Translations under genes and position numbers: made by a program
DNA from: Streptomyces caniferus
Lineage (GTDB): Bacteria > Actinomycetota > Actinomycetes > Streptomycetales > Streptomycetaceae
Direction: 5' to 3'
NCBI RefSeq assembly: GCF_009811555.1
Contig: NZ_BLIN01000005.1
Location: forward strand, 1,249,501 to 1,313,500
DNA: 64,000 bases
Notes under the pieces: model-generated
The model's input: the letters and a program-made list of their open reading frames with translations, nothing else
Database searches by the model: none
What the model was told of the DNA's origin: nothing
Shown: one piece after another, positions 11,909 to 55,829 of the stretch
How positions within the stretch are numbered: position 1 is the stretch's first letter
How the letters are laid out: every line of letters starts with the position of its first letter

Positions 11909-11935
11909 GTAGCCGCACACCGACTTCAAGACCTT

Positions 11936-13728: not shown

Positions 13729-13800
13729 CGGTGCCGAGGCCGCCGGGGTCCTACGGTGCCGAGGCCGCCGGGGTCCTACGGTGCCGGGGCCGCCGGGGGT
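13729..13800. repeat. 25-base tandem repeat, about 2.9 copies, across the chorismate mutase stop
   Basis: The unit begins CGGTGCCGAGGCCGCCGGGG and ends TCCTA. Two identical copies (13729-13753, 13754-13778) are followed by a third diverged partial copy. The third copy codes for the end of the chorismate mutase, and its stop (TAG) is the TCCTA end of the second copy. The first two copies are then non-coding. Confidence 0.85.
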
Positions 13801-14444: not shown

Positions 14445-14546
14445 GGTCGGCGGCCTTTCTCGAACCCCGGGACTCCGCGGGGAGTTCAGCGGACGGCATA
14501 CGACCGTGAGCCTAGGGGAGCCGCGCGACCGCGGCCCGCGACCGCA

Positions 14547-14588
14547 GCTACGGCTACGGCTACGGCTACGGCTACGGCTACGGCTACG
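14547..14588. repeat. GCTACG hexamer tandem repeat, seven perfect units
   Basis: Seven exact GCTACG units lie immediately 3' of the alpha/beta hydrolase gene. Read on the minus strand, every unit contributes an in-frame TAG, the first being the stop of the hydrolase. Confidence 0.9.
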
Positions 14589-15273: not shown

Positions 15274-15330
15274 GCGGTGGACGCTACCCGGGAGGTGTCG
15301 GCGCCACGCCCCTTGACGTGTTCGCCGCGC

Positions 15331-15349
15331 GCTGATTACTTGGATCAGC
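15331..15349. promoter_or_regulatory. Inverted repeat upstream of the PaaK-type gene
   Basis: GCTGAT-N7-ATCAGC has perfect 6-base arms and lies 7 bases from a second palindrome in the divergent hydrolase/ligase promoter region. It could be an operator; the regulator is unknown. Confidence 0.45.
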
Positions 15350-15355
15350 ATGTGG

Positions 15356-15373
15356 CTACCGAATGATCGGTAG
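15356..15373. promoter_or_regulatory. Perfect palindrome CTACCGA-ATGA-TCGGTAG, PaaR-like operator
   Basis: Seven-base perfect arms around 4 bases end 21 bases before the ligase ATG. The ACCG...CGGT core resembles sites of the TetR-type phenylacetate regulator PaaR in Actinobacteria, which suits the phenylacetate-CoA ligase downstream. The match is to remembered motif features only. Confidence 0.55.
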
Positions 15374-15394
15374 GGAAACGAGGCGGTGAACTCC

Positions 15395-37871: not shown

Positions 37872-37890
37872 TTAGGTATGCCTAACCTAA
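37872..37890. promoter_or_regulatory. Iron box (DmdR/IdeR-type operator) of the siderophore locus
   Basis: TTAGGTATGCCTAACCTAA is a near-perfect 19-base palindrome matching the DmdR1/IdeR consensus (TTAGGTTAGGCTCACCTAA-like). It ends 11 bases before the GTG of the first FecCD gene. Iron-loaded repressor here would shut the locus off. No other iron box was found in the 12-kb locus. Confidence 0.85.
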
Positions 37891-37901
37891 TGTAACGACG
37901 C

Positions 37902-38948
37902 GTGCCGACGATCAAACCACCTGCCACTGCACCCCCTGTGCCCGATGCGCTTCCCGCCGCGAACGTCCTGCGGCGCGTCCCGCTGTTCGCGGCCGGGCTC
38001 TGTGCCCTGGCGGTCTGTGCCGCCCTGAGCCTCGCTCTCGGCGCCCGGTCCGTACCGCTGTCCACCGTGTGGGACGCGCTGTCCGGCGCCGTCCACGGGC
38101 GGGACGCCCTGGTGGTGACGGGGCTTCGGCTGCCGCGCACGGTGGTCGCCCTCGCGGTCGGCGCGGCGCTCGGTGTGGCCGGAGCGGTCGTCCAGGGCGT
38201 CACCCGCAACCCGCTCGCGTCCCCGACGACACTCGGCATCAACGCGGGCGCGAGCTTCGCGGTGGTCACCGCGATCTATGCACTGCATCTGACCCGCCCC
38301 TCCCAGTACGTCTGGTTCGCGTTCGCGGGAGCCGCGGCCGCCGCACTGTTCGCCCAGGCACTGGCACGGCGCGCGGGTGATCTCGACCCCGCGCGCCTCG
38401 CGCTGGGCGGCACCGTCCTCCAACTCGTCCTGATCTCCTGGACGTCGACGGTCATGCTGGCCAGCAAGCGGTCGCTGGACGAGGCCCGGTTCTGGATGGC
38501 CGGTTCACTGTCCGAGCGCCCGCTGACGGTGCTCTACCCGGTGCTGCCGACCCTGGCGCTCGGACTGGTCCTCGCGCTGGCCCTCGCCCCCGCGCTCAAC
38601 GCGCTGGCGCTGGGCGACGATGCGGCGCAGGCGCTGGGCGTACGGGTGTCCCGGATCCGCGTGGCCGGCGGTCTGTCCGTCGTCCTGCTCGCCGCGTCGG
38701 CGGTGGCCGTGGCCGGTCCGCTCGCCTTCATCGGGCTGGCCGCCCCGCACCTGGTGCGCCAGCTGATGCGCACCTCCGACCACCGGATCGTGGTACCGGC
38801 CTCGCTGATCGCCGGTCCCCTGCTGCTGCTCACCGCCGACATCCTCGGACGGATCGTCATCCGGCCGTCCGAACTGCAGGTCGGCATCATCAGCGCGTTC
38901 CTCGGCGCGCCGCTGCTGGCGCTGCTGGCCCGGAAGGTGGCCCGATGA
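37902..38948 (+). CDS. FecCD-family siderophore ABC transporter permease
   Basis: The 348-residue membrane protein has about nine to ten hydrophobic segments and the FecCD signatures LRLPRTVVALAVGAALGVAGAV, TRNPLASPTTLGINAGASF and the cytoplasmic loop GLAAPHLVRQLMR that contacts the ATPase. It transports ferric siderophore across the membrane together with the second permease. GTG at 37902 follows the iron box directly and has no obvious ribosome site; GTG at 37938 is an alternative. It overlaps the next gene by 4 bases (ATGA). Confidence 0.85.
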   Translation: MPTIKPPATAPPVPDALPAANVLRRVPLFAAGLCALAVCAALSLALGARSVPLSTVWDALSGAVHGRDALVVTGLRLPRTVVALAVGAALGVAGAVVQGVTRNPLASPTTLGINAGASFAVVTAIYALHLTRPSQYVWFAFAGAAAAALFAQALARRAGDLDPARLALGGTVLQLVLISWTSTVMLASKRSLDEARFWMAGSLSERPLTVLYPVLPTLALGLVLALALAPALNALALGDDAAQALGVRVSRIRVAGGLSVVLLAASAVAVAGPLAFIGLAAPHLVRQLMRTSDHRIVVPASLIAGPLLLLTADILGRIVIRPSELQVGIISAFLGAPLLALLARKVAR

Positions 38949-40021
38949 CCGACGTCGTACGCAACGAGAAGACGCCCGGCCCGTCGTCCGCCACCCCGCC
39001 CCCGGCCTCCGGGCGGCGACACCCGGTGCGCCGGACCGCGCTGCTCGCGCTCGCCGGTGCGGTGCTGCTCGGCGCCCTGGTGACGGTGTCCGTGGCCAAC
39101 GGCGATCTGCCGCTGCCGCCCGCCGATGCGGTCAAGGGCCTGTTCGGGCTCGGCGATTCCGCCACGGTGCTGGTGGTCCAGCAGTTCCGGGCCCCGCGGA
39201 TGGTCGCGGCGATCGTCGCGGGGGCGGGCCTGGCGGTGGCCGGTGCCCTGCTGCAGCGGCTGTTCCGCAATCCGCTCGCCTCCCCCGATGTGATGGGGGT
39301 GACCGGCGGCGCCTCGTTCGGCGCGGTGGCGATGCTGGCCGCCGGGGCCTCGCAGGCGCTGATGCCGCTGGCCGCGCTGGGCGGCGGACTGCTCGCCGCG
39401 GTGCTGCTGGGGGTGTTCGGCTGGCGCTCCGGGGTCAGCGTGACCCGCCTGGTGCTGGTCGGTCTCGCCGTGCAGGCGGGCCTGTCGGCGGCGGTGAGCT
39501 TCATGGTCGTCCGCTTCCCCACCGAACTCGCGGGGTCGGCCCTGCAGTGGACGACGGGCTCGGTGTACGGGCGGACCTGGACCGAAGTGTGGTCGGCCGG
39601 CGGGGCGATGGCCGTGGCGCTGCTCGCCGCCTTCGCGCTGCACCGCCGGCTGGCCGTCCTCGACCTGGGCGACGACTCGGCCGGCGCGCTCGGCCTGCAC
39701 ACCCACACCGCCCGGCTGCAGGTCCTGGTCGTCGCCATCGTGCTGGCCTCGCTGGCCGCCGCGCTGACCGGCCCGGTCGCCTTCGTCGCGCTCGCCGTTC
39801 CGCACATCGTGCGGCTCCTCGCCGGGCCGCCGACCGCCGGGACGCTGGCGCTGTCCGGCCTCGCCGGTGCCGTGCTGCTGCTCGCCTCCGATCTCGTGGC
39901 GCAGTACCTGCTGCCGGTCGGCGGGCTGCCGGTCGGGGTGGTCACCGCCACGCTGGGCGCGCCGTGGCTGCTGGTGTTGATGATCCGTCAGAGCAGTTCC
40001 GTCAACAGGAGTGTCCGATGA
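38945..40021 (+). CDS. FecCD-family siderophore ABC transporter permease
   Basis: The 358-residue second half of the permease dimer has a hydrophilic N-terminal 30 residues and then about ten transmembrane segments. Signatures are FRAPRMVAAIVAGAGLAVAGAL, RNPLASPDVMGVTGGASFGAV and the ATPase-contact loop ALAVPHIVRLLAG. It is translationally coupled to both flanking genes by 4-base ATGA overlaps, so the two permeases and ATPase are made in fixed proportion. The partner binding protein is encoded at 40900. Confidence 0.9.
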   Translation: MTDVVRNEKTPGPSSATPPPASGRRHPVRRTALLALAGAVLLGALVTVSVANGDLPLPPADAVKGLFGLGDSATVLVVQQFRAPRMVAAIVAGAGLAVAGALLQRLFRNPLASPDVMGVTGGASFGAVAMLAAGASQALMPLAALGGGLLAAVLLGVFGWRSGVSVTRLVLVGLAVQAGLSAAVSFMVVRFPTELAGSALQWTTGSVYGRTWTEVWSAGGAMAVALLAAFALHRRLAVLDLGDDSAGALGLHTHTARLQVLVVAIVLASLAAALTGPVAFVALAVPHIVRLLAGPPTAGTLALSGLAGAVLLLASDLVAQYLLPVGGLPVGVVTATLGAPWLLVLMIRQSSSVNRSVR

Positions 40022-40830
40022 CCGCCAACCAGCTCTCCACCCAGGGACTCGATCTCCGCTACGGCGACCGGCTGATCGTCGGCGGCCTCGATCTGGTGCT
40101 GCCCGGCGGCGCCGTCACCGCCGTCGTCGGCCCCAACGCCTGCGGCAAGTCGACGCTGCTGCGCGGTCTGACCCGGCTGCTGGCGCCGTCGGCCGGCACC
40201 GTCGCGCTGGACGGCGCCGACATCCACCGGATGCCGGCGCGGGCGCTGGCGCTGCGCATGGGGCTGCTGCCGCAACAGCCGGTCACCCCCGACGCGATCA
40301 CGGTCGAGGCGCTCGTACGGCTGGGCCGCTACCCGCACCAGCGGCTGCTGAGCCCCTGGTCGGCGGCGGACCAGCAGGCGGTGGAGGAGGCGCTTCGGCG
40401 CACCGGCACCGTGGAGCTGCGCGACCAGCCCGTCGACCGGCTCTCCGGCGGCCAGCGGCAGCGCGCCTGGATCGCGCTCGCGCTGGCGCAGGACACCGAA
40501 CTGCTGCTGCTCGACGAGCCGACCACGTTCCTGGACCTGCGGCACCAGCTCGATGTCCTCGATCTGGTCGCCGAGCTGCACTCCGAGGCGGGCCGCACCG
40601 TGGTGATGGTGCTGCACGACCTCGGGCAGGCGGCCCGCTACGCGGATCACCTCGTGGTCCTCAAGGACGGGCAGCTGGCAGCGGCCGGCGCACCGGCGGA
40701 CGTACTCGACGCGGAGCTGGTCAAGTCCGTGTTCGACGTGGACTGCCGGGTGATCCCCGACCCCGAGACCGGCACCCCGCTGGTCGTCCCCCGGGGCAGC
40801 GCGAAACGGCACACCGCCCTTTCCGCCTGA
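40018..40830 (+). CDS. Siderophore ABC transporter ATP-binding protein (FecE/FhuC-type)
   Basis: The 270-residue ATPase has Walker A GPNACGKST (38-46), signature LSGGQRQ (142-148), Walker B LLLLDEPTTFLDLRHQ (from 162) and the switch His in VVMVLHDLGQAARYADH. The Q-loop, GLLPQQPVTPDAITVEALV, is typical of iron-siderophore importers. ATG overlaps the upstream stop (ATGA). It energises uptake through the FecCD permeases. A 69-base spacer separates it from the lipoprotein gene. Confidence 0.9.
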   Translation: MTANQLSTQGLDLRYGDRLIVGGLDLVLPGGAVTAVVGPNACGKSTLLRGLTRLLAPSAGTVALDGADIHRMPARALALRMGLLPQQPVTPDAITVEALVRLGRYPHQRLLSPWSAADQQAVEEALRRTGTVELRDQPVDRLSGGQRQRAWIALALAQDTELLLLDEPTTFLDLRHQLDVLDLVAELHSEAGRTVVMVLHDLGQAARYADHLVVLKDGQLAAAGAPADVLDAELVKSVFDVDCRVIPDPETGTPLVVPRGSAKRHTALSA

Positions 40831-40899
40831 CCCGGCCCCTCCCCCGCACCCCCCACGACCTCTCCCCTTTCCGCTCCCCCTCAAGGAAGTTGCCTCCTC

Positions 40900-41913
40900 A
40901 TGCTCACCAGATCTCCTCTTCACGGCGCCGTCCGGCTGCCGGCCGCGCTGCTCGCCGTCGTCCTGGGCGCGGGCACCCTCACCGCCTGCGGCGGCGGCAC
41001 CTCCTCGGGGGGCGACGACGCGGCGAAGAGCGGCGCCGGCTTCCCGCGCACCGTCAAGAGCGCCATGGGCGGCGACGTGAAGATCCCCGCCAAGCCCAAG
41101 CGCGTGGTCGTCCTGGACACCGGTGAGCTCGACGACGTCATCACGCTCGGCATCAAGCCCGTCGGCGCGGTCTCCCCGCACATGAAGACCGAGGGCGGCT
41201 TCCCCACCTACCTCAAGGACGAGATCGGGGGCGTCAAGGACGTCGGTCCGCTGCTGGAGCCGAACCTCGAAAAGATCATCGCCCTGAAGCCCGACCTGAT
41301 CCTGTCCTCCAAGGTCCGGCACGAGAAGATCTACGACAAGCTCCAGCAGATCGCGCCGACCGTCTTCACCGACACCACCGGCGGCCCCTGGAAGGCCAAC
41401 CTGAAGGTCCACGCCAAGGCGCTGGGCCTGGAGAAGGAGGCCGACCGGAAGCTGAAGGAGTACGAGACCCGGGCCAAGGCGCTGGGTGAGGCCATCAAGA
41501 AGAAGTACCACGGCAAGATGCCGTCGGCGTCCGTGGTGCGCTTCGTCGCCGGCCCGACCCGCCTCTACCAGAAGTCCTCCTACAGCGGTGTGGTGCTGAA
41601 CGACATCGGCCTGGCCCGGCCGAAGTCCCAGAGCTCCACCGACCCGGTCAAGACGATGCTCGACGTCAGCCCCGAGCAGATCGACAAGGCCGACGCGGAC
41701 ATGGTGTTCGTGACGACCGCGGACGAGCCGAGCAAGACCCAGCAGAAGGACGTCACGTCCAACCCGGTCTGGAAGGACCTGCCGGCCGTCAAGGACCACA
41801 AGGTCTTCACCGTGCCCGACGAGACGTGGATGTCCGGTATCGGCATCCAGGCCGCCGAGCACATGCTCGCCGACGTGGCGAAGGCCACCGGCGTGCCGCT
41901 GCCTAAGGGCTGA
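40900..41913 (+). CDS. Iron-siderophore substrate-binding lipoprotein
   Basis: The 337-residue protein has a lipoprotein signal with lipobox LTAC; Cys30 is the lipidation site. The two-lobe periplasmic binding fold follows: VKIPAKPKRVVVLDTGELDDVITLGIKPVG (first lobe), LEPNLEKIIALKPDLILSS, and the C-lobe VTSNPVWKDLPAVKDHKVFTVPDETW. It belongs to the FecB/FhuD-like cluster that captures ferric siderophores. Translation begins after AAGGAAG. A strong hairpin follows its stop and separates it from the biosynthetic genes. Confidence 0.9.
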   Translation: MLTRSPLHGAVRLPAALLAVVLGAGTLTACGGGTSSGGDDAAKSGAGFPRTVKSAMGGDVKIPAKPKRVVVLDTGELDDVITLGIKPVGAVSPHMKTEGGFPTYLKDEIGGVKDVGPLLEPNLEKIIALKPDLILSSKVRHEKIYDKLQQIAPTVFTDTTGGPWKANLKVHAKALGLEKEADRKLKEYETRAKALGEAIKKKYHGKMPSASVVRFVAGPTRLYQKSSYSGVVLNDIGLARPKSQSSTDPVKTMLDVSPEQIDKADADMVFVTTADEPSKTQQKDVTSNPVWKDLPAVKDHKVFTVPDETWMSGIGIQAAEHMLADVAKATGVPLPKG

Positions 41914-41919
41914 CCCCCA

Positions 41920-41950
41920 GGGGTGGCCCCTCCCCACCGGGGGCCACCCC
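41920..41950 (+). terminator. Intra-locus hairpin after the binding-protein gene
   Basis: Eleven-base perfect arms (GGGGTGGCCCC and its complement) flank a 9-base loop, 6 bases after the lipoprotein stop. It would uncouple uptake genes from the biosynthetic genes, or attenuate read-through to them. Confidence 0.75.
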
Positions 41951-42020
41951 CTCCCCCTCTCCGGCCCCTCTTGTTTCCCCTTGTTTCCCCGCACCCCCTC
42001 GACCCCTAAGGGGCCCGCTC

Positions 42021-43211
42021 ATGCGGATGTATCTGCTCGCCCTCAACCCCACCGACTCGGTCACCGAGGGGTTCCTGCCCGCTGCCGCCCGCCTCGGCCT
42101 CGACGTCACGATCCTGACGGACCAGCCACCGGCGCACCGGGAAGTGCCCCCGCAGACCGAGGTCCTGGAGTGCGACGTCCGTGACTTCCGCGCCGTCATC
42201 AACCGGATAGCCACCCACCACCGCCCCGACGCGGTGTTCACCAACAGCGACCATCTGCAGACCCAGGCCGCCCTGGCCGCCGACTACTTCGGACTGCCGG
42301 GCAAGGACTGGCGGGCCGCGCTGCGCGCCAAGAACAAGGGCGAGATGCGGCGCCACCTGGCCGCCGCGGGCCTGGACGCGGTGCGCTCCATGGAGCTCGC
42401 CCCCGGGCAGGACCCGTCCGCGTTCGCCGCCGCCGACCTGCCCTACCCCGTGGTCCTCAAGCCCCGCGAGGGCGTGGCGAGCGAGGACGTGATCCTGGCC
42501 GGGGACGCCGAGGAACTGGTGACGCTCGCCAAGGAGATCCAGGCGCGGCGCCCTGACGCGGCGCTGCTGGCCGAGGAATTCCTGGCCGGCGAGCTGTACA
42601 CGCTGGAGACGCTGGGCGACGGCCGGGTACGGCATGTCCTGGGCGGTTTCCACACCACCATGTCCGCGCCGCCCGTCTTCATCGAGGAGCGGCTGGACTT
42701 CGTCGCCGCCCCGCCGGAGCCCGTGGTCGCCCAGGTGTCCGCCCAACTCGACGCGCTGGGCGTCGGGCTGGGCGCCGCTCACACCGAGTTCGTGGTGCAC
42801 GAGGGGCGGGCGCGGCTGATCGAGGTGAACTACCGCGTCATCGGCGACCAGTGCGACCTGCTGCTCGCGCAGATCCTGGGCATCGAGCTGTTCGAGCACA
42901 TCCTGCGGGCGCATCTGGGCGAGCCGCTGCCCGCGGACCTCGGTGCCCGGCGCGACGGCGCGGGCCGGGTGGACTACCCCCTCGCCCACCGGGCGGGCAC
43001 CCTCACCGCGGCGCCCGCCGCCACCGACCGGACGGTGGACGGCGTACGGCTCTCGTACCGGCCGCTGCGCGACCTCGGTGAACGGCACCCGTACTACGGC
43101 ACCAACCGCGACTACCTAGGCGTGCTGCGGGTCACCGGCACCGACCGCGGCGCCGTGGACCGGGTGGCGGACGACTTCGTCGCCGCGGAGCGCTGGGAAA
43201 TCACCCAGTGA
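42021..43211 (+). CDS. ATP-grasp domain ligase of the siderophore cluster
   Basis: The 396-residue enzyme starts at ATG after AAGGGG. A Rossmann-like N-domain (about 1-105) precedes the ATP-grasp core: LPYPVVLKPREGVASEDVIL (ATP-binding Lys), LLAEEFLAGELYTLETLGDG and the metal-binding LIEVNYRVIGDQCD. It should form an amide or peptide-type bond between a carboxylate and an amine with ATP. It is absent from the staphyloferrin B gene set and is the distinctive member of this locus. The next gene starts in its last codons (GTGA overlap). The substrate is unknown. Confidence 0.85.
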   Translation: MRMYLLALNPTDSVTEGFLPAAARLGLDVTILTDQPPAHREVPPQTEVLECDVRDFRAVINRIATHHRPDAVFTNSDHLQTQAALAADYFGLPGKDWRAALRAKNKGEMRRHLAAAGLDAVRSMELAPGQDPSAFAAADLPYPVVLKPREGVASEDVILAGDAEELVTLAKEIQARRPDAALLAEEFLAGELYTLETLGDGRVRHVLGGFHTTMSAPPVFIEERLDFVAAPPEPVVAQVSAQLDALGVGLGAAHTEFVVHEGRARLIEVNYRVIGDQCDLLLAQILGIELFEHILRAHLGEPLPADLGARRDGAGRVDYPLAHRAGTLTAAPAATDRTVDGVRLSYRPLRDLGERHPYYGTNRDYLGVLRVTGTDRGAVDRVADDFVAAERWEITQ

Positions 43212-45025
43212 ACACCGCACTCGCCACCGCCGAGGGCACCGTCGCGCCCCGGGCCGACGACCCGGCCGGGGCGGTGGAAGAGGCCGAGCTGCTGGTGCGC
43301 GTCCTGGGTGCGCTGTTGCGGGAGGACGTCGTCGGCCTGCGCACCCGTGGCACGCTGCTGGAACGGCCGGACGGGCACTGGCTGCGGCTCCCCGCGGGCC
43401 CGGCCGCCGGCGCCCTGTTGCTGCCGCTCGCCGAGGACGGCTACCAGAGCACGTACACCGCCCGGCTGCCGCTCCTGGTCCGCGAGTCCGACGGGGCCAG
43501 GCTGACCACGCTCGACGAGGCCGTCACCGCGCTGCGCGACCTCGCCGACCCGGCCGACCAGGGCGGCTTCGACGCCCTCGCCGAGGAATGCCGCCAGACC
43601 CTGGCGACGATGCGGCTGCACACCCGGACCCGGGACGAGGCCGACGCCGCACTGACCAGCCGCCACGGCAGCGATCCCGGCGCCTGGCAGGGCCTGGCCG
43701 GCGGCCTGGGGTACGACACACTGGCCGCCCGGACCGACCACCCCGTCTACCCGACCGCCCGCGGCCGCTCCGGTCTCGACGAGGGACAACTCCGCGCGTA
43801 TGCACCCGAGTTCCGTCCGGAGTTCGCGCTGCGCTGGCTCGCCCTGCCGCGTGCGGCGGTCACCGTGCCGGGTGGCGCCGCGGCGCTGCCCGACTGCTGG
43901 CCGACACCCGGGGAGCTGGGCCTGCGCCACCTCGACGAGAGCCATCTCGCCCTTCCCGTCCACCCGTTGTCCCTCGGCGATCCGCTGCACGGCGCGCTGC
44001 GCCGGACCGGTCTGGAGGGCGCGGCGGTGCTGTCCGACCGCGAGCTGCTCACCGCGGTTCCGACGCTGTCGATGCGGACCGTGGCGCTCGATGCCGACCC
44101 GCGGCTGCACCTGAAGCTGCCGCTGGCCACCGCCACGCTGGGGCTGCGCAACCGGCGCACCATCAAGCCGGGCACCCTCGCCGACGGCGCGGCGGGCCAG
44201 CGGCTGCTGGAGACCGTGCTCGCCCGCGAGCCACGGTTCGCCGCCGCGATCCTCCAGGCCGACGAGACCTGCTACGCGCACGCCGGTGACGAGCTGCTGG
44301 CCGTGCTGTGCCGCCGCTACCCGGCCGGCCTGGACCACAGCGCCGTCGTGCCGATGGCCGCGCTGCTGAGCCGGGCGCCGGGCGGGCGGCTGGTGATCGA
44401 CCACCTCGCGGACCGCTTCTACGGCGGCGACCCGCTCGCCCTGCTCGATGCCTGTCTCACGCTGCTCTTCGACTGGCAGACCACCCTCTTCGGCTACGGC
44501 ATCGCGCTCGAATCGCACCAGCAGAACATCTCGCTGGTGCTGGACCGGGCCGCCGGCGGCACCCGGCTGCGGCTGCTGTTCAAGGACAACGACGGGCCGC
44601 GCATCAACACCGTCCGCCTGCGGGAGGCCCTGGGCGACGACGCCCCGGACCCCGCCGGCTTCGCCGACCCGCGGATCTTCGCCGGGAGCGACCGGCCGGT
44701 GCTGGACCTGTTCACCACCATCACCGTCCACCTGTGCGCGGGGTCGTACGCCTTCGGCCTCGCCCGGCACGGACGCGCCCCGCTGGCCCAGCTGCTCGGC
44801 CAGGTCCGCGACCGCCTCGCCGAGGCCGTCGAGCGGCTGGGCACCGGGCCGCACGAGCCGGGCGCCGCGCTGCGCGCCCACGTCCTGGACGCGCCGGAGC
44901 TTCCGGTGAAGGCGATGGTCAGCGCCGGGACGCTGCTGTCCAAGGAGCGCTCGGGGGCCGCCGACATCAACAAGCACTACACCACCGGACCCAACTATCT
45001 GCTGCCTACGGGGGCTTCCCGATGA
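43208..45025 (+). CDS. IucA/IucC-family siderophore (NIS) synthetase, copy 1
   Basis: The 605-residue product has an N-terminal IucA/IucC domain and a C-terminal FhuF-like ferric-reductase-type region (about 440-590). It carries VHPLSLGDPLHGALRR where most synthetases have a HPWQ or HPxH-type motif, then TLSMRTVALDADPRLHLKLPLATATLGLRNRR (nucleotide/carboxylate region) and ALESHQQNISLVLD. NIS synthetases adenylate a carboxylate, often citrate, and couple it to an amine or alcohol. The type (A, B or C) cannot be assigned safely. It overlaps the ATP-grasp gene by 4 bases and the exporter gene by 4. Confidence 0.85.
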   Translation: MNTALATAEGTVAPRADDPAGAVEEAELLVRVLGALLREDVVGLRTRGTLLERPDGHWLRLPAGPAAGALLLPLAEDGYQSTYTARLPLLVRESDGARLTTLDEAVTALRDLADPADQGGFDALAEECRQTLATMRLHTRTRDEADAALTSRHGSDPGAWQGLAGGLGYDTLAARTDHPVYPTARGRSGLDEGQLRAYAPEFRPEFALRWLALPRAAVTVPGGAAALPDCWPTPGELGLRHLDESHLALPVHPLSLGDPLHGALRRTGLEGAAVLSDRELLTAVPTLSMRTVALDADPRLHLKLPLATATLGLRNRRTIKPGTLADGAAGQRLLETVLAREPRFAAAILQADETCYAHAGDELLAVLCRRYPAGLDHSAVVPMAALLSRAPGGRLVIDHLADRFYGGDPLALLDACLTLLFDWQTTLFGYGIALESHQQNISLVLDRAAGGTRLRLLFKDNDGPRINTVRLREALGDDAPDPAGFADPRIFAGSDRPVLDLFTTITVHLCAGSYAFGLARHGRAPLAQLLGQVRDRLAEAVERLGTGPHEPGAALRAHVLDAPELPVKAMVSAGTLLSKERSGAADINKHYTTGPNYLLPTGASR

Positions 45026-46323
45026 GCACCGCCACCTCCCGCCGGACCGAGCCGGCGGTCGTCGAGACCAAGGCCGGTCCGGCCCTCGCGCGCCGCCAGG
45101 TGCACGCCGTGGCCGGCTGCTACTTCGTGGCCTCGTTCGCCGCCCTCGGCCTGCCGCCATACCTCACCGAAGTCCTGCCGGAACTGGGCGACGGCGCCGC
45201 CCGCTGGGCCGGTCTGCTCTATGTCGTCCCCACCCTGTTCGGCGCCCTCGGCGCCCCGCTGTGGGGGCGGCTGGCCGACCGCTTCGGCCGTAAACGGCTG
45301 CTGCTGCGGGCGCAGTTGGGGCTGACGGCGGCGTTCCTGCTGGCCGGCTGGGCCGACTCGCTCGCCACGTTCGCCGCGGCGCTGGTCGTCCAGGGCGTCC
45401 TCGGTGGTACCTTCGCCGCGTCGAACGGCTATCTGGGGGCGGCCCTGGAGGGCCATGCGCTGTCCCGGGCCCTGACGCTGATGCAGGGCAGTGCGCGGGC
45501 GGCGCTGGTCTTCGCGCCGATCGTGGTCGGCGCGCTGACGCCGTGGCTGTCGCCGCACCACCAGTACGCCCTGCTGGCCGTACTGCCGCTGGCCGCGGCC
45601 CTGATGCTGGCGAAGCTCCCGGAGCCGGACGCCGCCCCGGTCGGCGCGGTGCAGGGGGACGGTACCGCCCCGGGTGCCGAGGTCACGGAGCCGGCCGAGG
45701 AGGTGCCGGCCGGACGGGGGCCGGCCGGGTACACCCCGGACGCCCGCCCGCTGCGCGCCCTCTACGCCCTGGAGTTCGCGTTCGTCTTCTCCACCGTCAT
45801 CTCCTTCCCCTACCTGATCTCCCTCATCTCCCAGCAGCTGCCGGGGACCGGGCCGCTGGTGTCCGGTGTGCTGTTCGCCCTGCCGCACCTGTGCTATCTG
45901 GTCGCGGCGATGGGCGTGCACCGCGCCTTCCGCAACCGCCCCCGGACCGGGATCGCCCTCGGCTTCGGCTGTATAGCGGCCGGGCTGGCCGGGCACGGCC
46001 TCGCCGGCTCACTCGCCTCCTTCATCGCCGTACGCCTGGTGCTGGGCGCCGGGCTCACCCTCGGCCTGGTGTGCCTGTCCGTGCTGGCCGCCGACTGCGC
46101 CAAGGGCCGTGCCCCCGGCGGGCTGTTCGGCTCGATCGAGTTCTTCTCCAAGGCCGGCGCGGTCGCCGCGGGCGTGGCAGCCACCGCCGGCAACGACTGG
46201 TTCGGTCCGGTCGCCCCGCTGCTGACCGGCACCGCGATAGCCGTGGCCACCGGACTCGCGACCTCCGCCCCTCTCCTCGCCCGTACTCTCCGCACCCGCA
46301 GGAGCCCCCGATGCCCTCGCTGA
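45022..46323 (+). CDS. MFS exporter of the siderophore cluster
   Basis: The 433-residue membrane protein has about 12 hydrophobic segments with the MFS loop GAPLWGRLADRFGRKR between TM2 and TM3. A long Pro/Glu/Ala-rich cytoplasmic loop (about 205-245) lies between the two halves. Position between two NIS synthetase genes matches SbnD in the staphyloferrin B cluster, so it probably secretes the finished siderophore. Start and stop overlap neighbours by 4 and 13 bases. The substrate is inferred from context. Confidence 0.85.
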   Translation: MSTATSRRTEPAVVETKAGPALARRQVHAVAGCYFVASFAALGLPPYLTEVLPELGDGAARWAGLLYVVPTLFGALGAPLWGRLADRFGRKRLLLRAQLGLTAAFLLAGWADSLATFAAALVVQGVLGGTFAASNGYLGAALEGHALSRALTLMQGSARAALVFAPIVVGALTPWLSPHHQYALLAVLPLAAALMLAKLPEPDAAPVGAVQGDGTAPGAEVTEPAEEVPAGRGPAGYTPDARPLRALYALEFAFVFSTVISFPYLISLISQQLPGTGPLVSGVLFALPHLCYLVAAMGVHRAFRNRPRTGIALGFGCIAAGLAGHGLAGSLASFIAVRLVLGAGLTLGLVCLSVLAADCAKGRAPGGLFGSIEFFSKAGAVAAGVAATAGNDWFGPVAPLLTGTAIAVATGLATSAPLLARTLRTRRSPRCPR

Positions 46324-48089
46324 CCAATTCGCCCGGCACCGCCCCGGTATCCGCCGCCCCCACCGGCCTGCCCACCGCCGACCAGGCCGTGGCACACACC
46401 CTGCTCAACTGTCTGCTGCGGGAGGTCTCCGGCCCCGAGCACCAGACCGCCGTCGACGACGGGCGGCTGCTGGTCCGGCTGCCGCGCCGCGGAGTGCTGC
46501 TGCGCGTCGCGCTGCGCCGTACCTCGCTGCTGGGCGCGCACCGCTTCACCGGCCCGGTGTCGGAGCAGACCGACGGCGGCTGGGCGGAGGTCGGCTGGCG
46601 GCAGCTGGCCGAGTACGTGCGCGCCGAACTGTCGCTGCGCACCGGGGTGCACAACGAGGAGTTCCTGGCGCAGATCGCCTCCAGCCACCAGGCCGTGTCC
46701 GCCGCACTTGCGGCCCGTGTGGAGGCTCCGGCCGTCGGGGAGTACACCGCGGACGACTGGCAGGCCGCGTACGTCACCTCCGAGCAGTCGTTGCTCCTCG
46801 GCCACCGCTTCCACCCCACCCCCAAGGCCCGCACCGGCGACCCCACCGCCTGGCAGTCCTACGCCCCGGAGACCGGGGCCGTCTTCCCGCTGCTGCTGCT
46901 CGCCGTGCGCGAGGAGCTGATCGCCGAGGAGCGGTCCGCCGACGGCGCCACCGACCCGCTGGACGCGCTGCACGCCGACGTCCCGGACGGCTACCGGCTG
47001 CTGCCCGTCCACCCCTGGCAGTACGAGCTGCTGCGCGACCACGCGGGGCTGGCGGAGGCGCTGGACCGCGACGACATCCGCGTCCTGGGCAGCAGCGAGA
47101 AGCCGTTCGCCGCCACCGCGTCGGTGCGCACGCTCTACGACGGCGACGCGTTCCTGAAGTTCAGCCTGAACGTCCGGATCACCAACTGCCTCCGGAAGAA
47201 CTCCAGTTACGAGCTGTCCGGGGCCGTGGCCCTGACCCGGCTGCTGGCGCCGGCGCTCGCCGATCTCGCCACCCGGTTCCCGGGCGCCGCGGTGCTCCGT
47301 GAGCCCGCCTACCGCAGCCTGGCACTGCCCGGCGCGGACGGCCGTCCGGACACCGAGCTGCTGGAGGGCTTCGGCGTCATCGTCCGCGAGGGCCTGTCCC
47401 AGCAGCTGCTGCCGGGCACCACCCCGCTGCTGGCCGGCGCGGTCGCCGACGAGTACCCGACCAGCCCCGCACACATCTCCCGTCTCCTGGACGGCACCGG
47501 CCCGCAGGCCGCGCTGGAGTGGTGGGCCGCCTACCTCAATCTGCTCCTGCCGCCGGTGCTCGCCGCCTACTTCGACCACGGCCTGGTGCTGGAGCCGCAC
47601 CTGCAGAACGTGCTGGTCTGCGTCGACGGCGACGGGATGCCCGCACAGGTCCTCTTCCGCGACCTGGAGGGCACCAAGCTCGTCCCCGAGCAGCACGCCG
47701 ACCTGCTGGCCTCGCTGCCCGAGGACATCGCGGCGCCGATGACCTACGACGCCCAGCGCGGCTGGGACCGCGTGGTGTACTGCCTGCTGGTCAACCACGT
47801 CGCCGAGATGCTCGCCGCGCTCGCCGACCTGCACCCGGACACCGAGACGGAGCTGTGGGCGCAGGTGCGCCGCACCCTGCAGACCCATGCGGACCGCTAC
47901 GGCTGCCCGCCGCGGCTGGCCGCCCTGCTGGCAGGCGTCCCGCTGCCCGCCAAGGCCAACCTGCTCACCCGCTGGGAGCGCAAGGCCGACCGCGAGGCCG
48001 GCTACGTCCTGCTGCCCTCGCCGCTGGCCGAGGCCGTTCTGTCGGGCGCCGGGCGCACCGACGACACCACCCCCTGGAGCGCACGATGA
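46311..48089 (+). CDS. IucA/IucC-family siderophore (NIS) synthetase, copy 2
   Basis: The 592-residue enzyme has the canonical NIS motifs. These are YRLLPVHPWQYELLRDHAGL, SSEKPFAATASVRTLYDGDAFLKFSLNVRITNCLRKNS, VLEPHLQNVLVCVDGDGMPAQVLFRDLEGTKLV and a FhuF-like C-terminus ending near 592. The HPWQ and KFSLNVRITN segments mark the active ATP/carboxylate site. It should condense citrate or a citryl intermediate with an amine from the decarboxylase or ATP-grasp product. It begins 13 bases inside the exporter gene, with AGGAG upstream, and overlaps the decarboxylase gene by 4 bases. Confidence 0.9.
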   Translation: MPSLTNSPGTAPVSAAPTGLPTADQAVAHTLLNCLLREVSGPEHQTAVDDGRLLVRLPRRGVLLRVALRRTSLLGAHRFTGPVSEQTDGGWAEVGWRQLAEYVRAELSLRTGVHNEEFLAQIASSHQAVSAALAARVEAPAVGEYTADDWQAAYVTSEQSLLLGHRFHPTPKARTGDPTAWQSYAPETGAVFPLLLLAVREELIAEERSADGATDPLDALHADVPDGYRLLPVHPWQYELLRDHAGLAEALDRDDIRVLGSSEKPFAATASVRTLYDGDAFLKFSLNVRITNCLRKNSSYELSGAVALTRLLAPALADLATRFPGAAVLREPAYRSLALPGADGRPDTELLEGFGVIVREGLSQQLLPGTTPLLAGAVADEYPTSPAHISRLLDGTGPQAALEWWAAYLNLLLPPVLAAYFDHGLVLEPHLQNVLVCVDGDGMPAQVLFRDLEGTKLVPEQHADLLASLPEDIAAPMTYDAQRGWDRVVYCLLVNHVAEMLAALADLHPDTETELWAQVRRTLQTHADRYGCPPRLAALLAGVPLPAKANLLTRWERKADREAGYVLLPSPLAEAVLSGAGRTDDTTPWSAR

Positions 48090-49333
48090 CCACCCCGAGC
48101 CCCGCCCTCACCGACGCGGTCCGCGACCGCGTCCGCTCCCTGGCGGCCGACGAACTCCCCGCCTACGTCTACGACATGGCGGCACTGCGCACGCACCTGG
48201 CCGGGGTACGGGCCGCCCTGCCCGAGCGCGTGGAGCTGTACTACGCGGCCAAGGCCAACCCGGAGCCGGAGATCCTGGCGGCGCTGCGCCCGTACGTCGA
48301 CGGCTACGAGGTGTCCTCGGGCGGCGAGCTGGCGCACGTCGGCAAGGCCGTGCCGGACGCCCCGCTCGCCTTCGGCGGACCGGGCAAGACGCCCGCCGAG
48401 GTCGCGCAGGCGCTGGAGCTGGGGGTGCAGCGCTTCCACGTGGAGAGCGTGTACGAGCTCCATATGCTCGCGAGCCTGGCCGCCCGGCTCGCCCCGGAGC
48501 GCCGGATCGCGGTGCTGGCCCGCTTCAACCTGCCGGTCGACGACGGTTCCCTGGACGGCAGCTCGCTGGCCATGGGCGGCCGCCCCACCCCCTTCGGCCT
48601 GGACCCCGCGCAGGCCGGCGAGGTCGTCGCCCTGCTCACCGACGGCAGCTGTCCGCAGCTCGAACTCCGCGGCATCCACGCCCACCTGGCCAGCGGCCTG
48701 GAGGCACCCGAGCAGCTCGCCGTGTCGGAGGCCATCGTGACGTGGGCCGCCGAGCTGGCCGCACACCACCGGATCCTCCTGACCGAGGTGGTCATAGGCG
48801 GCGGGATGGCCGTCGACTACGCCGCTCCGGAGCGCCGGTTCGACTGGACGGCCTTCGGCGCGGGTCTGGCGCGGCTCGCCGACGCCCACCCCGGCCTCAC
48901 CCTGCGCATCGAGCCCGGTCGTGCGCTCACCGCGTACTGCGGCTGGTACGCCACCGAGGTGCTGGACGTGAAGCACAGCCATGGCGAGGAGTTCGCCGTG
49001 GTCCGCGGCGGCACCCATCATCTGCGCACCCCCGCGACCAAGGGCCACGACCAGCCCTGCACGGTCCTGCCGTCCGAGGCGCCCTGGCCGCACGCCTGGC
49101 CGCGGTCGGCCGCGCAGGGCGACCTGGTCACCGTCACCGGGCAGCTGTGCACTCCCAAGGACGTCCTCGCCCGCAACGTCCCGGCGCCGGGGCTGCGGGC
49201 CGGTGACCGGGTGGTCTTCGGCGTCGCCGGGGCGTACGCCTGGAACATCTCGCACCACGACTTCCTGATGCATCCGCGGCCCGGCTTCCACTTCCTCGGC
49301 GCCGCGGAGCCCGGCGCCGCCGGGGAGGCCTGA
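48086..49333 (+). CDS. SbnH-like PLP-dependent decarboxylase (fold type III)
   Basis: The 415-residue protein belongs to the alanine-racemase-fold decarboxylases. The PLP lysine is Lys56 in LYYAAKANPEPEIL. The glycine-rich phosphate loop VVIGGGMAVDY and the C-terminal GAYAWNISHHDFLMHPRPGF agree with SbnH of staphyloferrin B. SbnH decarboxylates an amino-acid-containing siderophore intermediate to free an amine. Here the substrate may be an amino acid or a citryl-amino acid product of the synthetases. ATG overlaps the upstream stop (ATGA) and the next gene starts one base after its stop. Confidence 0.85.
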   Translation: MTTPSPALTDAVRDRVRSLAADELPAYVYDMAALRTHLAGVRAALPERVELYYAAKANPEPEILAALRPYVDGYEVSSGGELAHVGKAVPDAPLAFGGPGKTPAEVAQALELGVQRFHVESVYELHMLASLAARLAPERRIAVLARFNLPVDDGSLDGSSLAMGGRPTPFGLDPAQAGEVVALLTDGSCPQLELRGIHAHLASGLEAPEQLAVSEAIVTWAAELAAHHRILLTEVVIGGGMAVDYAAPERRFDWTAFGAGLARLADAHPGLTLRIEPGRALTAYCGWYATEVLDVKHSHGEEFAVVRGGTHHLRTPATKGHDQPCTVLPSEAPWPHAWPRSAAQGDLVTVTGQLCTPKDVLARNVPAPGLRAGDRVVFGVAGAYAWNISHHDFLMHPRPGFHFLGAAEPGAAGEA

Positions 49334-49334
49334 G

Positions 49335-50105
49335 ATGCTCCGCACCAACGAGGTCCGGCGCGGGCTCGCCGCGGGCGAGGCGGTCTACGGGCTGTTCAGC
49401 ACGCTCCCCGAGCCCACCATGGTCGAAATGATCGGCTGCGCCGACTACGACTTCGTCATCCTGGACACCGAGCACACCCTCGTCGACCCGCAGCGGCTGG
49501 AGAACCTCATCAGGGCCGCCGAGACGACCGGGCTCACCCCGTTCGTCCGGGTCCCCGAGGCCGATCCCGGTGCCGTGCTGCGCGCCCTGGACGCCGGCGC
49601 GATGGGCATCGTCGTCCCGCACGTGCGGCGGCGCGCGGACATCGACGCCACGATCCGCGCCGCCCGCTACGCGCCCGAGGGCATGCGCTCCCTCAACGGC
49701 GGCCGGGGCCCCGGCTTCGGCCGCATCGACCCGGCCGAATACCTCCGCCGGGCCAACGCGGAGATCATGGTCGTGGCGCTCATCGAGGACGCGGAGGGGG
49801 TCGAGGCGATCGACGAGATCCTCGCCCCCGGCGGCGTCGACCTCGTGCTGCCAGGACCCGGCGACCTCTCCCAGTCCTACGGGGTGCCCTGGCAGGTCCG
49901 GCACCCCCGCGTCCAGGAGGCGGTCCGCGCCCTCCGCGGGGCCTGCGCCCGCCACGACGTGCCCTTCTGCGCCATGTCCACCACGCCGGAGCGCCGCGCC
50001 GAGTGGCACGCCGACGGGGTCAGGGCCTTCGTCCTGGGCGAGGACCGCGATCTGACGGCGCGGGCGCTGCGGGGGCACCGGGAGCGGACCGCCGGCCGGG
50101 GGTGA
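49335..50105 (+). CDS. SbnG-like citrate synthase (HpcH/HpaI aldolase family)
   Basis: The 256-residue TIM-barrel protein has TMVEMIGCADYDFVILDTEHTLVDP, PFVRVPEADPGAVLRALDAGAMGIVVPHV, SLNGGRGPGFG and the metal-binding VVALIEDAEGVEAIDEI. This composition matches SbnG, a class of aldolase-derived enzyme that makes citrate from oxaloacetate and acetyl-CoA for siderophore assembly when the TCA enzyme is limiting. Length and motif spacing agree with SbnG (about 259). It is the last gene of the operon and ends before a hairpin. Confidence 0.85.
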   Translation: MLRTNEVRRGLAAGEAVYGLFSTLPEPTMVEMIGCADYDFVILDTEHTLVDPQRLENLIRAAETTGLTPFVRVPEADPGAVLRALDAGAMGIVVPHVRRRADIDATIRAARYAPEGMRSLNGGRGPGFGRIDPAEYLRRANAEIMVVALIEDAEGVEAIDEILAPGGVDLVLPGPGDLSQSYGVPWQVRHPRVQEAVRALRGACARHDVPFCAMSTTPERRAEWHADGVRAFVLGEDRDLTARALRGHRERTAGRG

Positions 50106-50123
50106 CGGCAACTCCATCGGCGG

Positions 50124-50148
50124 TACCCGCCCGGGCTCCGGGCGGGTA
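50124..50148 (+). terminator. Hairpin terminator of the siderophore operon
   Basis: A perfect palindrome with 10-base arms (TACCCGCCCG and its complement) and a 5-base loop (GGCTC) stands 18 bases after the SbnG-like stop. Confidence 0.8.
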
Positions 50149-51516: not shown

Positions 51517-51566
51517 GGGCGATTCATACCGTGGTGCGGAGCATCCGACCACGAAGGGGACCGCCC

Positions 51567-54500
51567 GTGACCGCACCGGAACCGCCCGCCGAGAGCATCA
51601 CGCAGGTGCGGACGGCATGCTCGTACTGCGGCGTCGGATGCGGGATCGTGCTGGACGTCGCGACGGGCCCGGACGGGCGGCGGACGGTCCGCAGAGCGGC
51701 CGGTGACAAGGCGCACCCGGCGAACGGCGGGCGGCTGTGCACGAAGGGCGCGACCAGCGCCGAGCTGCTCGCCGCGCCGGGCCGGCTGACGACCGCTCTG
51801 GTGCGCACCGACCGCGGCGACGAGCCGGTGGCCGAGGCGATGGAGACGGCGATCAAGCAGACCGCCGGGCGGCTGCGCGAGATCGTCGACGAGCACGGGC
51901 CGGACGCGCTCGCCCTCTACGTCTCCGGTCAGATGACCCTGGAGGCGCAGTACTTGGCGAACAAGCTCGCCAAGGGCTTCGTGCGCACCCGGTACATCGA
52001 GTCCAACTCGCGGCTGTGCATGGCGAGCGCGGGCAGCGGCTACAAGCTGTCGCTGGGCGCGGACGGCCCGCCCGGCTCGTACCAGGACTTCGAGCACGCC
52101 GAGGTCTTCTTCGTCATCGGCTCGAACATGGCCGACTGCCACCCGATCCTCTTCCTGCGGATGATGGAGCGGGTGAAGGCGGGCGCCAAGCTGATCGTGG
52201 TCGATCCACGGCGCACCGCCACCGCGGCCAAGGCCGATCTGTTCCTGCAGATCGCACCGGGCACGGATCTGGCGCTGCTGAACGGCCTGCTGCACCTGCT
52301 GGCCGAGGACGGCGCCCTCGACACGGAGTTCATCGCCGAGCACACCGAGGGCTGGGAGGCGATGCCGGACTTCCTGCGGGACTACCCTCCGGCGACGGTC
52401 GCCGAGCTCACCGGGATACCGGAGGCGGACCTTCGCCGGGCCGCGGAGTGGATCGGCGCCGCGGGCGACTGGATGAGCTGCTGGACCATGGGCCTGAACC
52501 AGAGCACCCATGGCACCTGGAACACCAACGCGCTGATCAACCTGCATCTGGCGACCGGTGCGATCTGCCGCCCCGGCAGCGGCCCGTTCTCGCTCACCGG
52601 CCAGCCCAACGCGATGGGCGGCCGCGAGATGGGCTACATGGGTCCGGGCCTGCCCGGCCAGCGCTCGACCCTGGTGGCCGAGGACCGGGCGTTCGTCGAA
52701 GAGCTGTGGGGCCTTGCGGCGGGGACGCTGCGGGCGGACGAGCCCGGCCGGGGAACCGTCGAGATGTTCCGGCGGATGGCGGACGGGGACATCAAGGCGT
52801 GCTGGATCATCTGCACCAACCCCGTCGCCTCGGTCGCCAACCGCCGGACGGTCATCGAGGGGCTGGAGGCGGCGCACTTCGTCGTCTCGCAGGACGTCTT
52901 CGCGGAGACCGAGACCCATGCCTACGCCGATGTGGTGCTGCCGGCCGCCATGTGGACCGAGTCCGAGGGCGTGATGGTCAATTCGGAGCGCAATCTGACG
53001 CTGGTGCGGCAGGCCGCCGACGCCCCGGGCGAGGCCTGGCCGGACTGGCGGATCATCGACCGGATCGCCTGCGAGATGGGGTACGAGGACGCCTTCGGCT
53101 ACCAGAACGCGGAGGAGATATTCGAGGAGATCAAGCGCGCCTGGAACCCGCGGACCGGCTATGACCTGCGCGGGGTGAGCTATGAGCGGCTGCGGGACAC
53201 CCCGGTGCAGTGGCCCAGCGCGGCCGCCGACGGCCCCGACCGCAATCCGGTGCGCTACCTCAACGACGGCCGCAGCCAGACGCTGGAGGAGCGGCCGGAC
53301 GGCACCCGTCCGCGGCTGTCCTTCCCCACCGCCAGCGGCCGGGCCGCCTTCTTCGCCCGTCCGCACCTTCCGGCGGCCGAGCTGCCCGACGACGACTTCC
53401 CGTACGTGCTGAACACCGGCCGGCTGCCGCACCAGTGGCACACCCTGACCAAGACCGGCAAGGTCGCCAAGCTGAACAAGCTCAACCCCGGCCCCTTCGT
53501 GGAGCTCCATCCCGACGACGCCCGGGCGCTGGGCATCGCGGAGGGGGACACCGTCGAGGTCGCCTCGCGGCGCGGCCGGGCGGTGCTGCCCGCCGTGCTG
53601 ACCGACCGGGTACGGCCCGGGAACTGCTTTGCGCCGTTCCACTGGAACGATCTGTTCGGCGAGTACCTCAGCGTCAACGCGGTGACCCATGACGCGGTCG
53701 ACCCGGTCTCCTTCCAGCCCGAGTTCAAGGTGTGTGCGGTCTCGCTGGCCCGGGTGGCGGGCGACGCCGGGCACGGGCAGGGCGGGCAGGACGCGGCGGA
53801 TACGGGCGGCGCGGCCGGGGCGGACACGGGCCGGGGCCCCGGCACGGGGGGCGCGGTGGCGGTGCTGACCGAGGTGTTCCAGCTCGCCGGTTCCGCCCCG
53901 CCGGTGCTGGCCGAGCACGAACGCCGCTATCTGTCCGGTTTTCTCGCCGGGCTGGGCTCCGGGCCCGCCACCGGCACGCCCGTGCTGCCCGACCGGGCGC
54001 CCTTCGCCCCGGAGAGTGCACTGTGGGTCAACGGCGTGCTGGCCGGGATGTTCTCCCGGGCGCCGGACGCCCGGCCGGCGACGGCGGCGGACCCGGCGGA
54101 CACCCCCGCCGAAGCGGCCGGCGACCGGCCGGCGCGTACGGTCCTCGTCCTGTGGGCCTCCCAGACCGGCAACGCGGAGGAGGTCGCCGCCGACACGGCC
54201 CGGCGGCTGCAGGGCAGCGGGCGGGACGCGACGCTGCTGAGCATGGCCGACAGCGCCCCGGCGGCCCTGCCGCACGGCGCCGATCTGCTCCTGGTCACCA
54301 GCACCTTCGGGGACGGCGACGCCCCCGACAACGGGGCGGGGTTCTGGGAGATCCTCAACGCGCCGGACAGCCCGCGGCTCGACGGAGTGCGCTACTCCGT
54401 GCTGGCGCTGGGCGATTCGTCGTACGACGATTTCTGCGGCCACGGCCGCCGGCTCGACGCCCGGCTCGCCGAGCTGGGCGCGGTGCGGCTGGCGCCGCGT

Positions 54501-55829
54501 ACCGACTGCGAACCGGACTTCGAGCAGCCGGCGGGTCAGTGGCTCGACCAGGTCCTCACGGCCCTGGAGTCCGGCGCGGAGCCGGGTGACGGGACGGAGC
54601 CGGGCGAGGTCGCGGACACCGGCACCGCCGGGGCCCCGGCCGCCCCCGCGGCTCACCCGCCTGCCCCCGCCGCCGCTCCCGAAGCACCGGCCCCCGCCCG
54701 CCCCACCAAGGCCGCCCCCGCCACCGTCCGCCTCGTCGGCAATCAGCTGCTCAGCCGGGACGGGGCCACCAAGGAGGTGCGGCAGTTCACCTTCGACACC
54801 CGTGACGGCGACGGCACACCGCTCGACTACGAGGTCGGCGACGCCCTCGGCGTGCTGCCGCGGAACTGCCCGGACCTCGTCGCGGAGTGGCTGGCCGTCA
54901 CCGGTCTCGATCCCGCCGCCCCCGTCGACCTCACGGGCCTGGGCACGGTGCCGCTGGGCGAGGCCCTGCACCGCCATCTGGACATCGCCCGGATCACCCC
55001 CGGCCTCCTCCGGCTGGTCGCCGAACGCACCGGTGACCGCGTCCTGAAGAAGCTGCTGCGGCCGGACAACAAGGGCGAGTTGGCCCAGTGGAGGTGGAGC
55101 CGGCAGGCCGTCGACGTCCTCGCCGAACACCCGGTGCGGGCCGGTGCGGCGGAGTGGGCCGGCGTCCTCACCCGTCTGCAGCCGCGGCTGTACTCCATCT
55201 CGTCGAGCCCGCTGACCGACCCCGCCCTGGTCCGCCTGACGGTCTCCGTGGTCCGCTACGAGAACCGCCGGGGGCTCCCGCGCAAGGGCGTCGCCTCGAC
55301 CTTCCTGGCCGATGCCGAGCTCGGGTGCCCGGTGCCGGTGTTCGTCCAGCGCGCCGCCCACTTCCGTCCGCCGGCCGATCCGGCCACCCCGATGGTGATG
55401 GTGGGCCCCGGCACCGGCGTCGCGCCCTTCCTCGGCTTCCTCGACGAGCGGCGGGCCCGCGGCCACCGCGCCCCCAACTGGCTCTTCTTCGGCGAGCAGC
55501 GCCGGGCCACGGACTTCTACCACGAGGAGGCACTCGGCCGGCTGCGCCGCGACGGGCTGCTCACCCGGCTGGACACCGCCTTCTCCCGCGATCAGCGTGC
55601 CAAGGTCTACGTCCAGGACCGGATGCGCGAACACGGCGCCCAGCTGTGGTCCTGGCTCCAGGACGGCGCCCATTTCTATGTGTGCGGGGATGCGTCCCGG
55701 ATGGCCAAGGACGTCGACCGCGCACTGCGGGACATCGCCGTGGCACACGGCGGCCTGGCGGAGGAGGCGGCCGCCGGCTACGTCAAGCAGCTCTCGGCGG
55801 AGAAGCGCTACGTCCGGGACGTGTACTGA
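51567..55829 (+). CDS. nasA: Assimilatory nitrate reductase fused to CysJ-like diflavin reductase
   Basis: The 1420-residue protein begins at GTG after AAGGGGA. Residues 1-735 are a molybdopterin oxidoreductase with a [4Fe-4S] site (Cys18, Cys21, Cys25, Cys58), SNMADCHP and [15 protein letters not shown] pterin contacts ([11 protein letters not shown]). A flavodoxin domain follows (about 857-1000; [29 protein letters not shown]), then an FAD domain and NADPH-binding domain ending [17 protein letters not shown]. It should reduce nitrate to nitrite with NADPH in one chain, without a separate electron donor. Long Ala/Pro linkers separate the modules. Such fusions are known in Actinobacteria; no nitrite reductase gene is near. 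Confidence 0.9.

Follow-up and report, generated by a model that had tools for sequence, protein, structure and literature searches.

The stretch of Streptomyces caniferus DNA analysed here (64,000 nucleotides, hereafter the window) carries, between 37902 and 50105, ten open genes on the plus strand, in which an iron-siderophore uptake system is followed by six biosynthetic genes of a nonribosomal peptide synthetase-independent siderophore (NIS) pathway, very probably one of the vibrioferrin type. The biosynthetic genes (42021-50105) encode, in order, an ATP-grasp ligase (42021-43211), an IucA/IucC synthetase (synthetase 1; 43208-45025), a major facilitator superfamily (MFS) exporter (45022-46323; Pfam PF07690), a further IucA/IucC synthetase read from the ATG at 46311 (synthetase 2; 46311-48089), a pyridoxal phosphate (PLP)-dependent decarboxylase (48086-49333), and a protein of the HpcH/HpaI fold, which is a probable citrate synthase of the SbnG type (49335-50105). 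Successive genes overlap by 4 bases (43208/43211 and 45022/45025), 13 bases (46311/46323) and again 4 bases (48086/48089), and a one-base gap precedes the last gene (49333/49335); the coupling by 4-13 base overlaps or a single base that an earlier note on this DNA had described is thus confirmed at the level of coordinates. The uptake block (37902-41913) likewise consists of open frames throughout, encoding two FecCD-type permeases (37902-38948 and 38945-40021; PF01032, 292 and 261 bits), a FecE-like ATP-binding cassette (ABC) transporter ATPase (40018-40830; PF00005, and NCBIfam FecE at 304.5 bits, under the cut-off of 375), and a substrate-binding lipoprotein (40900-41913; PF01497), for which the best NCBIfam model is a ferric dicitrate binding protein (131.7 bits, cut-off 320). 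None of the ten genes had an NCBIfam match above the cut-off of the model concerned; the families that the earlier note had named for the uptake and biosynthetic genes were borne out by the Pfam and NCBIfam matches.

The uptake genes are headed by a 19-base element, TTAGGTATGCCTAACCTAA (37872-37890, without assigned strand), presumably an iron box of the DmdR/IdeR type. It differs from TTAGGTTAGGCTAACCTAA, which we take to be the iron-box consensus, at 2 positions on one strand and 3 on the other, and 0 of 100 shuffles gave such a match. For the first permease the GTG at 37902 was chosen as start; the ATG codons at 37878 and 37890 fall within the box and at its end, respectively. An iron box at the head of the locus had been noted before and is found as described, and we infer that it controls both the uptake and the biosynthetic genes. 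The span of 37872 to 50148 proposed earlier holds at its start, which coincides with the box, while at the far side the last gene stops at 50105.

The first five biosynthetic genes correspond one to one, in the same order and on the same strand, to pvsABCDE of Vibrio, named as the vibrioferrin operon in excerpts of a paper that also lists ethanolamine, alanine, 2-oxoglutarate and citrate as the building blocks of vibrioferrin (PMC5577590). Compared with the operon of Vibrio sp. THAF190c, identities are 37% for the PvsA-like ATP-grasp protein, 37% for the PvsB-like synthetase 1 (240 bits), 36% for the PvsC-like exporter (209 bits), 32% for the PvsD-like synthetase 2 (261 bits) and 42% for the PvsE-like decarboxylase (319 bits), with all five scores between 209 and 319 bits. 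The same five-gene order recurs in loci of Azotobacter, Pseudomonas, Xanthomonas and Pantoea, and a tblastn search of a plasmid collection with the ATP-grasp protein retrieved relatives from Vibrio, Pantoea (annotated PvsA), Cupriavidus and Rhodococcus, all four of which lie in regions with this order. Several of these genera contain known producers. According to the portions of the sources at hand, Azotobacter chroococcum and Azotobacter vinelandii have five genes with identity to, and in identical order with, pvsABCDE (PMC4465626); A. vinelandii secretes vibrioferrin (PMC10669500, a review); and Xanthomonas campestris 8004 makes vibrioferrin, as judged by high-performance liquid chromatography against a standard, with siderophore undetected in a xibR xssA double mutant (PMC5130282). 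The last strain lies outside the loci compared here.

To place the sixth gene, we assembled 87 pvs-type loci, comprising the 80 best-scoring loci (from Vibrio, Pseudomonas, Azotobacter, Xanthomonas and other genera) obtained when genome contigs were scanned with aligned pvs-type ATP-grasp proteins (Vibrio sequence first), and seven from plasmids. An SbnG-type gene is present in 65 of the 87, a proportion that is not a frequency in nature, since the best 80 loci were ranked by score to the Vibrio sequence. In 63 of these loci the gene lies upstream of the ATP-grasp gene (one of them ending after the MFS gene, at the edge of the stretch), and in two it lies downstream, as in the window. The remainder consists of 17 Vibrionaceae five-gene loci, to which we return below, three actinobacterial four-gene loci without MFS and SbnG, a short contig with the ATP-grasp gene only, and a locus of Saccharospirillum impatiens with a different order, in which an IucA2 and a decarboxylase gene stand upstream of those for the ATP-grasp protein, IucA1 and the MFS protein. 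SbnG-type genes are therefore frequent partners of pvs-type operons outside the Vibrionaceae.

At the level of single enzymes, the assignments are consistent with this picture. The ATP-grasp protein is 39% identical to the Pantoea soli protein annotated PvsA, and its AlphaFold2 model (predicted local distance difference test score 91.7) matches L-amino acid ligases at ranks 1, 2, 4, 5 and 6 (3vot, YwfE/BacD and RizA), with a template modelling score of 0.80-0.82 of the query for 3vot. In a sequence search of solved structures, L-amino acid ligases likewise make up the best six of eight rows, and the protein probably acts as an amino-acid ligase. Its named relatives in the protein search are from Streptomyces. 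Many homologues are publicly annotated as “acetyl-CoA carboxylase biotin carboxylase subunit family protein”, a label that hides a siderophore role. Synthetase 1 has SbnC as its best NCBIfam match, a weak one (45 bits). For synthetase 2, queried from position 46320, the best solved relative is AcsD (231.5 bits, the next kind being IucA at 132), an enzyme that joins citrate to L-serine, and the two proteins have the motifs NVRITNCxRKN, EPHLQN and RDxEG in common. The decarboxylase has 6knh, which we take to be SbnH, as best solved relative (260.8 bits; next other protein 131.7). The last protein is nearest to 4tv5, presumably SbnG (223 bits), and to its variant 4tv6 (221.6), the next other protein scoring 120; the remaining 19 solved sequences matched are all further from it than this pair, which favours the SbnG type over HpaI/GarL/YfaU aldolases. 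In the PDB, 4tv5 itself carries the name 2-dehydro-3-deoxyglucarate aldolase, and among 120 listed homologues of the last gene, at least eight (66-72% identity) are named SbnG or staphyloferrin B citrate synthase and many others are named aldolase. The SbnG-type protein of A. chroococcum also has 4tv5 as its best solved relative (185 bits; next other protein 108).

The locus belongs to a wider actinobacterial group. The ATP-grasp protein was found in 96 of 200 Streptomycetaceae genomes (E-value up to 1e-60; 9 per-genome first-look candidates scored), and SbnG in three (E-value up to 1e-40; 13 candidates scored). SbnG adjoins the operon in two of the three, namely the genome of the window and that of another species (G154), where all ten genes recur at 81-96% identity in the same order and with the same box; in the third, a congener (G104), it sits in a staphyloferrin B-type (sbn-type) cluster. 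We then inspected 25 actinobacterial loci, five taken up earlier and 20 selected manually at successive ranks among the 96. Eleven of them have a four-gene form without an MFS or SbnG match (L010, L011, L012, L131, L134, L136 and L140-L144), 12 have five genes (the MFS match being split in one of them) and two have all six. An iron box with at most 4 mismatches accompanies the operon in 24 of the 25, in a search that covered 6 kb before and 8 kb after the ATP-grasp start, while 494,517 shuffled bases (one single-base shuffle per locus) yielded 0.

Considering the complete pvsABCDE set and order, the description of the locus as staphyloferrin B-like but incomplete, given in the earlier note, is not upheld; the SbnG-type gene that it drew on also accompanies 65 of the 87 pvs-type loci. 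The broader claim is supported: the locus is of the NIS siderophore kind and headed by an iron box, and its citrate-based product probably differs from both staphyloferrin B and desferrioxamine. Judging from the families of the encoded proteins, the product is likely to be vibrioferrin or a close congener, assembled from 2-oxoglutarate, citrate, ethanolamine derived from serine, and an L-amino acid that is probably alanine. In the scheme that we propose, each enzyme would be used once for the four vibrioferrin blocks. Vibrioferrin itself, calculated as these blocks minus three waters, is C16H22N2O12, with an [M+H]+ of about 435.125. Under iron starvation, a repressor would leave the box at 37872-37890 and allow transcription of the uptake and biosynthetic genes. 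SbnG makes citrate from oxaloacetate and acetyl-CoA, and the SbnG-type enzyme would supply citrate in this way independently of the enzyme of the tricarboxylic acid (TCA) cycle. The AcsD/PvsD-like synthetase 2 would join this citrate to L-serine, giving citryl-serine, and the decarboxylase would convert the seryl part to ethanolamine, giving citryl-ethanolamine. The ATP-grasp enzyme would then add the L-amino acid, probably alanine, and the PvsB-like synthetase 1 would add 2-oxoglutarate, closing to the hydroxy-pyrrolidone. The MFS protein is predicted to export the product, and the FecB/FecCD/FecE-like ABC system to take up its ferric complex.

Several observations weigh against this interpretation. 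The 17 Vibrionaceae five-gene loci mentioned above have no SbnG gene within the stretch examined, and the uptake genes of the window are only moderately similar to their Vibrio counterparts (27-47% identity). The five shared genes are 32-48% identical to loci of producer genera, at which level substrates may have changed. Among the fold matches of the ATP-grasp model, rank 3 is of the PurD type, and biotin carboxylases and PurD-type enzymes fill most of the remaining ranks; since these share the ATP-grasp fold, fold alone cannot settle the function, and the best NCBIfam model for this protein is the ATP-grasp part of an argininosuccinate lyase subfamily (160 bits, cut-off 625). Two reviews, as far as their excerpts go, give the ester-forming step to PvsA (PMC5577590, PMC6836290), and the first adds that the specific functions of the pvs enzymes remain untested. 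In the excerpts returned by a literature search, there was no product for any actinobacterial pvs-type cluster, this locus included. Finally, three SbnA/SbnB pairs outside the locus, described below, could supply the genome with L-2,3-diaminopropionate (L-Dap).

Of the alternatives to vibrioferrin itself, the one that survives best keeps the pathway and changes a block: a different amino acid substituting for alanine, or a different diacid, would give a new congener. The ATP-grasp protein is only 35-46% identical to the eight proteobacterial enzymes compared, and its amino-acid specificity is beyond prediction from the sequence data here; many of its positions, along with the gene order, are nonetheless kept across two phyla, and nothing points directly to a change. 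We regard such a changed block as possible, though somewhat doubtful.

A reduced staphyloferrin B-like pathway, in which L-Dap made elsewhere in the genome would enter an amide-linked citrate siderophore, appears very improbable to us. What speaks for it is, first, that SbnH and SbnG, as we take 6knh and 4tv5 to be, are the best solved relatives of the decarboxylase and of the last protein, and second, that sbnA/sbnB-like genes are at hand. As the earlier note stated, the locus itself contains no sbnA/sbnB and no third synthetase, only two IucA/IucC genes being present there; genome-wide this absence does not hold, as the 9.15 Mb genome has three further IucA/IucC genes (five found in total) and three SbnA/SbnB pairs over curated cut-offs (C5:449077-451037, C5:923571-925518 and C3:187220-189229; L114-L116). 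The pairs, which are far from all five IucA/IucC genes, weaken the argument from absence and leave a small chance of a Dap-containing product, and we therefore do not conclude from the lack of sbnA/sbnB that there is no L-Dap to draw on; their absence from the locus fits a serine-based pathway. Additionally, an SbnA-family match (34-39% identity; 4612-5454, minus strand) stands roughly 4 kb ahead of the ATP-grasp gene in the pvs-type locus of Embleya sp. NBC_00896 (L012), without an SbnB match, and the SbnG of the window is 70% identical to that of the sbn-type cluster of the congener G104. This cluster (C22:156000-175900) has three IucA/IucC matches, SbnG, decarboxylase, SbnA and SbnB, with no ATP-grasp match, and a different contig of the same genome holds a pvs-type operon of five genes without SbnG, 75-86% identical to that of the window. 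Compared with these same-genus sbn-type enzymes, to which synthetases 1 and 2 score only 94 and 157 bits, both synthetases are nearer to Vibrio pvs (240 and 261 bits). In the SbnG tree, the window, G154 and the Rhodococcus pvs-type rows fall in a supported clade of 11 rows, apart from the single sbn-type row, which is in another clade. Together with the gene order pvsABCDE and an ATP-grasp gene beside two synthetases in place of three, the synthetase similarities led us to reject a staphyloferrin B-like identity. A separate history of SbnG was first suggested by its 72% identity to the Rhodococcus protein, against 45-52% for the other genes, but acquisition from an sbn-type cluster is unsupported by the tree, in which the gene neighbourhood is known for few rows.

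That the locus is decayed or silent and yields no product, for which only the lack of any product report could be cited, is hardly credible, given ten open genes, the conservation of all ten with order and box in G154, and an ATP-grasp gene kept in 96 of the 200 family genomes.

Elsewhere in the genome, a second NIS locus (L027, C2:8000-27900) encodes two IucA/IucC proteins together with a class III aminotransferase at 10560-16645, and no iron box within 5 mismatches was found in its 19.9 kb stretch. Another IucA/IucC gene, at C5:2055214 (L028), has an iron box nearby and may belong to a desferrioxamine cluster. Downstream of one SbnA/SbnB pair lies an open frame of 1644 codons (L114, 7023-11957). 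Within the window, the plus-strand gene at 51531-55829 encodes a 1432-residue protein whose single chain joins a molybdopterin oxidoreductase domain to flavodoxin and FAD/NAD reductase domains.

Vibrioferrin labels have been printed for Streptomyces clusters before. Excerpts from the respective papers give an antiSMASH label of vibrioferrin (18%) in a Streptomyces genome (PMC7385001), a citation of the vibrioferrin operon paper for the siderophore clusters of Streptomyces sp. GQFP (PMC9022529), and a vibrioferrin-like polyhydroxycarboxylate siderophore cluster, avs (7320-7323), in Streptomyces avermitilis (PMC9394381). The kind of cluster is thus known, and Streptomyces versions have already been noted; strain GQFP has a protein with 75% identity to the ATP-grasp protein of the window. 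With regard to SbnG or citrate synthase in actinobacteria, a literature search gave no paper naming SbnG among the matches listed, as far as their excerpts extend. In place of an incomplete staphyloferrin B locus, the present analysis predicts, in a form open to test, a Streptomyces siderophore of the vibrioferrin type, and the assignment proposed here of a citrate-serine ester to the PvsD-like enzyme and of amino-acid ligation to the PvsA-like enzyme departs from the excerpts of the two reviews cited above. More speculatively, and with less confidence than doubt, we suggest that the operon makes a congener of vibrioferrin not met before in actinomycetes. It would be a photolabile Streptomyces siderophore of the alpha-hydroxycarboxylate kind, for which a dedicated SbnG enzyme would provide citrate and so keep synthesis running while the TCA cycle is throttled, and in which the ATP-grasp enzyme rather than the IucA/IucC enzymes would decide which amino acid is built in and hence which congener results. 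The system would then have been overlooked in about half of the Streptomycetaceae, where it would be SbnG-less as a rule.

Among known systems, the staphyloferrin B cluster resembles the locus in its SbnG- and SbnH-type proteins and its citrate-based NIS logic, but, according to excerpts of PMC3179956, uses three synthetases (SbnC, SbnE and SbnF) with SbnA/SbnB, whereas the window has two synthetases and an ATP-grasp protein. The S. avermitilis avs cluster, compared by its description in the excerpted text only, has four genes, three of them labelled siderophore synthetase component, and possibly represents the four-gene form seen among the actinobacterial loci; in a protein search with the Streptomyces chartreusis ATP-grasp sequence, made to place avsA, S. 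avermitilis was not among the best 120. The Vibrio pvs operon agrees with the locus in five genes, their order and strand, and adjoining ABC uptake genes annotated as ferric dicitrate, while differing in that it has TonB receptors, divergent uptake genes and, in the stretch examined, no SbnG; in the window, SbnG is present and the uptake genes stand ahead of the operon in the same orientation. The pvs/xss-type loci of Azotobacter, Xanthomonas, Pseudomonas, Pantoea and other genera have the same five genes and an SbnG-type gene, as in the window, although that gene lies upstream of the ATP-grasp gene and its products in the four loci compared are 37-43% identical to the window SbnG. The exact six-gene order of the window, with SbnG last, is found in Cupriavidus necator H16 (plasmid pHG1) and Rhodococcus sp. 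WAY2, whose operons are 37-53% (SbnG 53%) and 45-72% (SbnG 72%) identical to it, respectively.

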